From: a bacterium
GTDB taxonomy: Bacteria; Myxococcota_A; UBA9160; UBA6930
Length of the DNA stretch: 45,430 bases
Direction: 5' to 3'
Assembly (NCBI GenBank): GCA_024228115.1
Contig: JAAETT010000039.1
Span: forward strand, 1-45,430
Position numbers and translations under genes: made by a program. The notes under the pieces were generated by a model. That model searched no databases and was not told the origin of the DNA. It was given only the letters and a program-made list of their open reading frames with translations. Each line of letters begins with the position of its first letter. Position 1 is the stretch's first letter. Positions 29,428 through 31,016 of the stretch are shown piece by piece.

Positions 29428-29483
29428 CGTCGGGCCCTGGTACGTCGCTGACCGTGGCGGGGGCCGCTTCGCTTCTCGTGGTG

Positions 29484-29657
29484 GATCGCGGGGCGGGGGG
29501 CGGCCATCGCGGAATGGCTCGGCTGGGGATCGGGGGGCCGCTTTCGACTTGGCCGCGGGTTCGCTTACGCGGCTTTGCCGCTAGCGAACTTGCGCACGCT
29601 CACGCGACGAGATGCCTGCGCTTTATTTCCGCGCTGACCGCCCCCCGCCCCGCGATC
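29484..29657. repeat. 174-bp structured repeat element, copy 1
   Basis: The ends are an inverted repeat: 29484-29503 is perfectly complementary to 29638-29657, and pairing continues inward to 29514/29627 with two mismatches (29 of 31). Inside is a 31-base hairpin (29559-29589): a GTTCGCT/AGCGAAC stem, GCGGC/GCCGC inner stem and TTT loop. Fifteen bases at 29509-29523 and 21 bases at 29612-29632 (one mismatch) recur, inverted, in copy 2. The segment holds only short, compositionally odd open frames. Confidence 0.7.
29559..29589. repeat. Internal hairpin of repeat copy 1
   Basis: Seven-base outer arms at 29559-29565 and 29583-29589, five-base inner arms at 29569-29573 and 29577-29581, loop TTT. 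The asymmetric internal loop (TAC on one side, T on the other) matches the 3-base bulge position in copy 2. Confidence 0.7.
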
Positions 29658-29831
29658 TTGCGTGGGAGGTGACACGATACCGCGTCGCTAACAGGGAATT
29701 TTGGGTGGAGGCGTTAGGGCGCTTCAGCCGAAGGAGGGGCCACGCGTTGGCTTCACCGTTTCAGCAAGGAACCGGGCTCTTGCTCTGCCCGTGCCTCCTG
29801 GGTTCGGCGACCTTCCTCATGAGAACCGCTT

Positions 29832-30005
29832 CGCCGGGGTTGGGCACAGGTCGGGCGGAAATCAAGCGCAGGCATAGGCGCGGCCAAGCGTGCGCGTAGG
29901 TTGCCCGCGGCGAAAGCCGCGAAGGGCAACACCCCGTCCACCTCCCTACGCGGCCACCCGACCCCCGGCCGAGCCATTCCGCCCGACCTGTGCCCAGCCC
30001 CGGCG
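29832..30005. repeat. 174-bp structured repeat element, copy 2 (inverted relative to copy 1)
   Basis: The ends 29832-29860 and 29977-30005 pair over 28 of 29 positions. The outer arms are unrelated in sequence to copy 1, except for the inner GCGGAA. Conserved segments shared with copy 1 on the opposite strand are 29855-29875 and 29968-29982. A 31-base hairpin lies at 29900-29930. It ends 31 bases before the stop of the unknown gene at 30037. Confidence 0.7.
29900..29930. repeat. Internal GNRA-type hairpin of repeat copy 2
   Basis: GTTGCCC and GGGCAAC form the outer stem, GCGGC and GCCGC the inner stem, with a GAAA tetraloop and a 3-base GAA bulge on the 3' side. Same length (31) as the hairpin in copy 1. 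Three outer-stem base pairs differ between the copies yet remain paired. Confidence 0.7.
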
Positions 30006-30036
30006 GCTCCGCGCTACGCACGAAAAGCGAAGCGGC

Positions 30037-30420
30037 TCAAGGCTCCGAAGACGCTTGTGTGCTCGCTTCTGCGCTTACTTCTCGGCCTGCTACGCGCAGG
30101 CGGACGCGGCAGGCGATCTCCAGGGAGGGGACCTGCTCGCCGCGGCGCCAGAGACCGCGGGTCTGGAACTCCGCGTCGAGTTCTGCTTTTTCGATTGCCT
30201 TGCTGATGCCGGTGGCCTTCTCGATTTCCCGGCGTAGTTCCTCGCCGATGAAGAGCGAGGGCAGCGGATCGCCGTCGCACCATGCCTCGCCCGTTCGAAG
30301 ATCCAGGCGAAGGGAGCCCTCGCCGATCGCGAGCAACGCCTCGTAATCGTCGCGCAGCTTCCAGCCGAGGAAGATCCGACACAGGTCTTGCGCCAGAACC
30401 TGGCTCGCTTCGGGGGTCAC
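30037..30420 (-). CDS. Conserved-looking protein of unknown function in the ECF operon
   Basis: About 127 residues, with no family I recognise. It begins VTPEASQVLAQDLCRIFLGWKLRDDYEALL, which looks like an amphipathic helix pair, has a charged middle (GEELRREIEKATGISKAIEKAELDAEFQ) and lacks signal or membrane segments. The GTG at 30420 lies 20 bases after the DUF3106-like gene, with no clear ribosome site, so translation may depend on the upstream gene. It is the last gene of the sigma / anti-sigma operon, and its 3' end abuts the repeat elements. Confidence 0.6.
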   Translation of the reverse strand: MTPEASQVLAQDLCRIFLGWKLRDDYEALLAIGEGSLRLDLRTGEAWCDGDPLPSLFIGEELRREIEKATGISKAIEKAELDAEFQTRGLWRRGEQVPSLEIACRVRLRVAGREVSAEASTQASSEP

Positions 30421-30440
30421 GAGCGGAGCGTAGCCGGAAT

Positions 30441-31016
30441 TCAGTCGAGGGCCGACGACGCGGCGCGCAGCCCTTCGAGAATTCCGGCGCGCTCCTCCGT
30501 GGACCGGGAGGAGAATTGTTCTTCGACCAGGGCCTTCTGCTCCTCGGCGGTGAGCTTGCGGAAGTGATGGAGGCGGCGACGCAGCTTGTCCTGCTCCGAT
30601 CTTTCGAGCCCCTGCCATTGCTTCAGCTGGCGTCGGAACTGGCGCCGCCGGGGCGGTGACATCTCTGCCATGCGTTCGCGCATCGCTCGGCGATGCTGGC
30701 CATCTGCTCTGGCATCGTTCCGGCGGATCCGGCGCTCCATGCGCTGGGTGAACGCCGTTCGCTCACCTTCACTCATCCCCTTCCAGCGTTCGAAGAATTC
30801 CGCACGCCGACGGGGCGGCATGTTGCGCAGGCGTCGAATCGCACCGCGACGCTGCTCTTCTGGAAGACCGGCGATCCACGAACGCAATGACAGCGGCGCG
30901 TCACGGCGCACTTCTTCGGGCGTCGGGCGATGGGGCTCTTCGGCACGCGCCGGAGACGCCAGCAGGAGCAGCCCGCAGACCGCCGAAGCAAGCAAGCTGC
31001 GCGTCGCCCGTTTCAC
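30441..31016 (-). CDS. DUF3106-like exported arginine-rich protein
   Basis: A 191-residue protein with an N-terminal signal peptide (RSLLASAVCGLLLLASPARA, cleaved after ARA). The mature part is almost all charged helix with repeats of the type LPPEQRRxxxxRLRxMPPRRRAEFFERWKxMSEGER, the pattern of the DUF3106/periplasmic heavy-metal-sensor-like group. It overlaps the anti-sigma stop as ATGA. In analogous operons a periplasmic protein in this position works with the anti-sigma factor as a stress sensor; here that is inference. Confidence 0.75.
   Translation of the reverse strand: MKRATRSLLASAVCGLLLLASPARAEEPHRPTPEEVRRDAPLSLRSWIAGLPEEQRRGAIRRLRNMPPRRRAEFFERWKGMSEGERTAFTQRMERRIRRNDARADGQHRRAMRERMAEMSPPRRRQFRRQLKQWQGLERSEQDKLRRRLHHFRKLTAEEQKALVEEQFSSRSTEERAGILEGLRAASSALD

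Follow-up and report, generated by a model that had tools for sequence, protein, structure and literature searches.

The two 174-nt elements described here lie in a window of 45,430 nt (the whole stretch of DNA analysed) and are members of a large hairpin family, to all appearance undescribed, that reaches tens of copies per genome and extends over at least three distantly related groups of bacteria. Our preferred reading, to which we give about as much belief as doubt, is that the pair is a composite of a REP-like hairpin, active as single-stranded DNA (ssDNA) and recognised in trans, and that it is a non-autonomous mobile element. The initial annotation of this region had proposed a dispersed repeat family under selection for a folded RNA or DNA, and both proposals are strongly supported: a covariance model counts 36 units in the genome at E<=0.001, and the pairing of arms that were not selected for pairing, their covariation and the strand-specific G·U pairs all point to selection on the fold. 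It had staked the idea on further copies in the genome or stem conservation in relatives, and both were clearly found.

Units A (29484-29657, +) and B (29832-30005, -) are each 174 nt long and mutually inverted, as first described, and each is closed by complementary outer arms (A, 31 nt, 94% complementary; B, 29 nt, 97% complementary). The MFE z-scores are -7.0 for A and -6.9 for B, and none of the 200 shuffles of either unit was equally good. The three compensated pair differences reported for the internal hairpin are also real (GTTCGCT/AGCGAAC in A, GTTGCCC/GGGCAAC in B). Together the units form one composite in which the folding strands diverge (minus for A, plus for B) and which is bracketed by an 18-bp inverted pair (Table 1). 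Seen on the folding strand of unit A, the left member of this pair trails the stem on its 3' side; the same terminal motif also ends composites on other contigs and in genomes G003 and G004, and it is absent outside the family-level relatives. What the initial annotation missed is the folding strand, the conserved head, and the position of its 'internal hairpin' in a dispensable insert of the apical loop.

Table 1. Parts of the composite, in window positions.
Feature	Positions	Strand	Basis or remark
Outer terminal motif GCCGCTTCGCTTCTCGTG, left end of genus-level composite	29463..29480	+	Inverted pair with 30019-30036
Unit A outer stem arm, 3' arm on folding strand	29484..29510	-	Pairs with 29630-29657; sequence free family-wide, pairing kept
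Unit A head, 3' half, CGAGCCAT on minus, ATGGCTCG on plus	29514..29521	-	Invariant in alignments A3 and A4
Unit A apical-loop insert ('core') with internal hairpin	29522..29615	-	Missing from the 83-nt minimal form; replaced by an unrelated core at the G003 ortholog
Unit A head, 5' half, GAAATAAAGCGCAG on minus, CTGCGCTTTATTTC on plus	29616..29629	-	(Nearly) invariant
Unit A outer stem arm, 5' arm on folding strand	29630..29657	-	Arm complementarity, MFE fold
Inter-unit spacer, 174 bp here	29658..29831		Module recurring at 70-80% identity in other composites
Unit B outer stem arm, 5' arm on folding strand (plus)	29832..29857	+	Arm complementarity, MFE fold
Unit B head, 5' half, GAAATCAAGCGCAG	29858..29871	+	Alignments A3 and A4
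Unit B apical-loop insert with internal hairpin	29872..29969	+	Pair comparison of A and B
Unit B head, 3' half, CGAGCCAT	29970..29977	+	Alignments A3 and A4
Unit B outer stem arm, 3' arm on folding strand	29978..30005	+	Arm complementarity, MFE fold
Outer terminal motif, right end of composite	30019..30036	-	Adjoins the stop codon of the convergent minus-strand ORF 30037..30618

BLAST gave 86 raw matches in the genome for copy A and 62 for copy B, many of them arm fragments. For A there are about 18 near-full-length copies at 86-100% identity besides many fragments, and B has a separate set of copies of about the same size. The arrangement is nearly always A(+), spacer, B(-), with a spacer of mostly 26-30 bp. 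Stretches resembling the longer spacer module of the window adjoin units in L020/L049 and L003 of G000 and in L153 and L167 of G003. Mosaics also occur, L019 and L021 being single units that combine an A arm at one end with a B arm at the opposite end. The family is present in four congeners, relatives have between 0 and 70 copies per genome, and arm subfamilies are species-specific. In G002 many units stand at contig ends (C16, C29, C88, C98, C138, C224), so that the repeats break assemblies and the copy numbers are probably underestimates.

Comparisons of orthologous loci indicate that units persist, recombine, and are gained or lost. For 14 of 27 loci in G000, one or both flanks map to a unit-bearing locus among those retrieved from G003, so that many positions are old, and pairing is retained in units at loci conserved between species. 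At the window locus in G003 (L149) the pair is present, B is conserved, and the arms of A are kept around an unrelated, shorter core; L008 compared with L158 displays the same exchange, with the outer arms of A kept and the core again unrelated and shorter. It is as if cores had been swapped between copies at orthologous positions. A further locus holds a pair in G000 and a single, changed unit with a truncated neighbour in G003; in G004 the flanking genes are only a few tens of bases apart and no unit lies between them. This empty site is too diverged for placing the ends of the element, and no target duplication was found.

Distant members of the family have in common only ATGGCTCG and CTGCGCTTKAYTTC. 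A GTDB pattern search with these two motifs alone, in which pairing was not required, gave at least 120 stretches in MAGs labelled Myxococcales/Myxococcota, Deltaproteobacteria, Proteobacteria and Gammaproteobacteria. Among the matches listed, 109 of 138 motif-only hits had 26-nt arms with at least 18 paired positions, and arm sequences were unrelated between units; several of the remaining hits have an indel in one arm or lie at a contig end. Among 284 genomes of the phylum, a covariance model (R2) built from 36 units with unrelated arms has matches in 27, every one of them in the window's order; it also matches 49 of 99 relatives of a gammaproteobacterial (gamma) MAG and, at 47-49 sites, an AT-rich deltaproteobacterial MAG (37% GC at the locus), nearly all carriers being MAGs. 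The minimal unit, seen in the gamma group, is an ungapped 83-nt hairpin with a stem of 26-27 bp and a head of approximately GGAARTAAAGCGCAGC-GNA-GCGAGCCAT, and the 174-nt form is this hairpin with an insert in the apical loop.

Three scans of Rfam 15 gave no match to the units above the gathering score, the candidates M23, P10, mir-H4, mir-H1 and Plastid-psbJ-5 all falling below it. A viral or plasmid origin was considered and rejected, there being no match in IMG/VR or phages and only one 20-nt partial match in plasmids; E. coli has none. In the open-access literature on the motif, REPs and structured RNAs we found no description of the family. Since the stems of different copies have no sequence in common, repeat finders that rely on sequence would overlook the family, which may thus be much more common than REP catalogues indicate.

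Covariation in the stem is strong in both sets of units. The score is 0.801 in 36 units with unrelated arms, against 0.170 +/- 0.013 after shuffling (405 doubly changed cells vs 129), and 0.813 in 56 ungapped 83-nt gamma units, against 0.196 +/- 0.010 (546 vs 138); moving the partners by 1-3 columns reduces it to 0.17 or less. The units of alignment A3 were picked for paired arms, so that the percentage paired there is partly selected, a selection of which the motif-only count is free. Counted outward from the head, pairing holds at about 90% as far as approximately position 24 and has fallen to background at about 26-30, in the window's order and in the gamma group alike. The stem is about 26 bp, of fixed length and almost free sequence, and its halves stay matched. 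Within the head, GA at positions 55-56 (A4 columns) occurs only with G31, and A31 goes mainly with a Watson-Crick closing of the head (U55 and C/U/G56). This coupling suggests a non-canonical structure motif, in RNA or DNA, which on our own reading resembles a bulged-G motif.

What forms a G·U pair on one strand appears as an A·C mismatch on its complement. On the strand that reads GGAARTAAAGCGCAG...CGAGCCAT, there are 41 G·U to 5 A·C in the set of 36 diverse units and 71 to 12 in that of 56 gamma units, with per-unit sign tests of 22:1 and 35:5 in favour of G·U. Wider sets gave 161:17 (first set) and 103:13 (second set, gamma), and in the first of these the selection counted opposite-strand G·T as paired and was biased against the result. 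One single strand is under structural selection, minus for A (opposite to the strand that the initial annotation read) and plus for B. Neither a cruciform nor recognition of the double strand nor templated correction would produce such an excess; a strong mutation bias specific to one strand is a formal possibility for its source.

Gene context was determined with home-made gene calls (codon log-odds). In the gamma set 40 sites are convergent, 32 tandem and 2 divergent, so that 54% of units lie between convergent genes vs 21% of gene pairs (baseline 56/269), with a median of about 20 nt to both stops. The context in the window's order is similar, and overall units lie about 20-30 nt past stop codons; G318 is an exception in which units are mostly between divergent or tandem genes (small sample). 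In tandem pairs there is no orientation bias, the folding strand being sense/antisense in 17/15, 12/14 and 17/18 cases in three data sets. Bases flanking the stem are unconserved in 79 gamma units, no conserved sequence was found upstream or downstream of units, and there is no U-tract (in gamma units T makes up 20-35% at each of the six positions that follow the stem). A sense-strand 3'-UTR element, suggested by the first contexts, was rejected because convergent sites fit both orientations and tandem sites are unbiased. So was a promoter of the element's own upstream of the folding strand, since an early distance asymmetry came largely from paired units and is absent in gamma singles, and a small coding gene starting at a conserved ATGGCT, which 1-nt indels between copies contradict.

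The main rival to the ssDNA mobile hairpin is a structured RNA, in which the folding strand would be transcribed and serve in mRNA 3'-end protection, as a target of RNase III or an RNA-binding protein, or as a small RNA, its dispersal being a side-effect. We hold this to be possible and rather doubt it. An RNA would account for the strand-specific tolerance of G·U, the invariant head-loop positions with the coupled non-canonical ones (GA 55-56 only with G31), the location 20-30 nt after stop codons, the pairing retained at orthologous loci and the near-ubiquity among relatives of the gamma genome, and the G·U excess and possible non-canonical head pairs, being typical of RNA, speak against ssDNA. 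However, sense and antisense orientations of the folding strand are equally frequent in the tandem pairs of all three data sets, and the units have neither a conserved promoter-like upstream sequence nor a U-tract nor an Rfam family. The lack of tandem orientation bias, U-tract and conserved upstream sequence argues for DNA over a cis-acting RNA, and that the units fold on one strand yet lie in either orientation makes an ssDNA hairpin that serves mobility the likelier reading. Mobility itself is suggested by the range of 0-70 copies per genome, the species-specific arm subfamilies, the paired divergent units, the occupied, altered and empty states of one locus, and the mosaics, but the pairing kept at conserved loci suits a host function equally.

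Each unit consists of a stem of about 26 bp and a sequence-conserved head. If the units are ssDNA mobile hairpins, they would be active in single-stranded form, probably as ssDNA, for example on the lagging strand. A trans factor, whose existence we infer, would read the head and a perfect stem of fixed length and be indifferent to the letters of the stem, whose sequence could then drift under compensatory constraint. The same factor would move or copy the element to the ends of genes, which tolerate insertion, and such mobility would be the cause of the spread. We stand midway on the broader proposition that this is an undescribed cross-phylum class of mobile or host-maintained hairpins, marked out by the conserved head and by a stem of fixed length and free sequence that folds on one strand, and putatively served by a non-RAYT recombinase or a binding protein. 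Hundreds of independent stems around one conserved head amount to a natural experiment that defines what the putative factor recognises, and they open to testing whether dispersed bacterial palindromes for which no transposase is known move in the form of ssDNA or function as RNA, and which protein would bind the head.

REPs tagged with GTAG or CGTC have an unpaired tag at the foot and stems of 5-13 bp (PMC3733652). The units share with REPs their number and location, tens of dispersed extragenic palindromes per genome near the 3' ends of convergent ORFs, as well as inverted dimers, covarying stems with G·T pairs and occurrence in several phyla (PMC3733652). They differ in having no GTAG/CGTC foot tag and no conserved foot sequence (79 gamma units), in a stem of about 26 bp in both lineages vs 5-13 bp, and in that their conserved part is the 31-nt head. 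In genomic habit the units may thus be said to work like REPs, a likeness that does not make them REPs by anatomy. With the REPIN/RAYT system (PMC3116915, PMC8266576) they have in common the composite of two inverted hairpins and the proposed non-autonomous mobility. A RAYT/Y1 transposase was nevertheless rejected as the mobiliser, because Y1_Tnp is absent from five unit-rich genomes (G318, G319, G017, G057 and G044, MAGs that may be incomplete) and none of the 30 Y1 loci examined is flanked by a unit. Clustering of 749 predicted neighbour proteins in search of a unit-linked gene gave only large families of housekeeping type, with no recurring transposase, and no transposase or transposition event was found for the units. 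Y1_Tnp-like gene families, 10-12 per genome with ORFs mostly of 200-435 aa, were seen in their own right (L062-L070 in G000; L365 and others in G024) and are unrelated to the hairpins. The integron attC site is a folded single strand that is recognised by its structure, its sequence being largely free. The units may work like attC as a structure-recognised single strand, but they have no RYYYAAC/GTTRRRY core sites at their ends (there are no conserved terminal columns) and do not lie in cassette arrays.

We consider it quite improbable that the element is an ordinary MITE, in other words a non-autonomous DNA transposon whose terminal inverted repeats are recognised in double-stranded form. Like Correia/NEMIS and ERIC, the elements are short, non-coding and dispersed, and within one genus they have 18-bp inverted ends with which the composite would move as a unit. 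The MITE-like character proposed in the initial annotation holds at that level, inside the genus, where the composite has sequence-conserved terminal inverted repeats; family-wide it does not, since the ends share no sequence and conservation lies mid-hairpin, in the head. Folding is moreover strand-specific, and double-stranded recognition does not predict G·U far in excess of A·C on one strand. A strong hairpin between convergent stop codons would also suit a bidirectional terminator or an insulator of convergent genes, which we think very improbable given that the folding strand has no U-tract, that pairing is selected on one strand only and that units also stand antisense between tandem genes. 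Template switching can correct quasi-palindromes, and cores and arms clearly recombine between copies, but it is hardly credible that template switching or hairpin gene conversion keeps the arms complementary with no selection and a merely mutational strand bias, since templated correction leaves unexplained a 6-9 fold excess of G·U over A·C in two lineages of differing GC, the fixed stem length and invariant head bases are likewise unexplained, and the neutral decay of head and stem predicted for old orthologous copies is the opposite of what the data show.

Some units have well-known neighbours, the genes being judged by eye: one lies just 3' of rnpB (L081, G010, 1385-1570), one just 3' of a glyA-like gene (L076, G072), and others beside alaS (L012, L075). 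At the alaS locus a unit is present in both G000 and G004, and the cores differ. In the AT-rich MAG G318 (L355, L377-L395) most units nest another repeated hairpin, ATCCCGGACAGTGCTTTAGCACTTACGGGAT or similar, in the apical loop.
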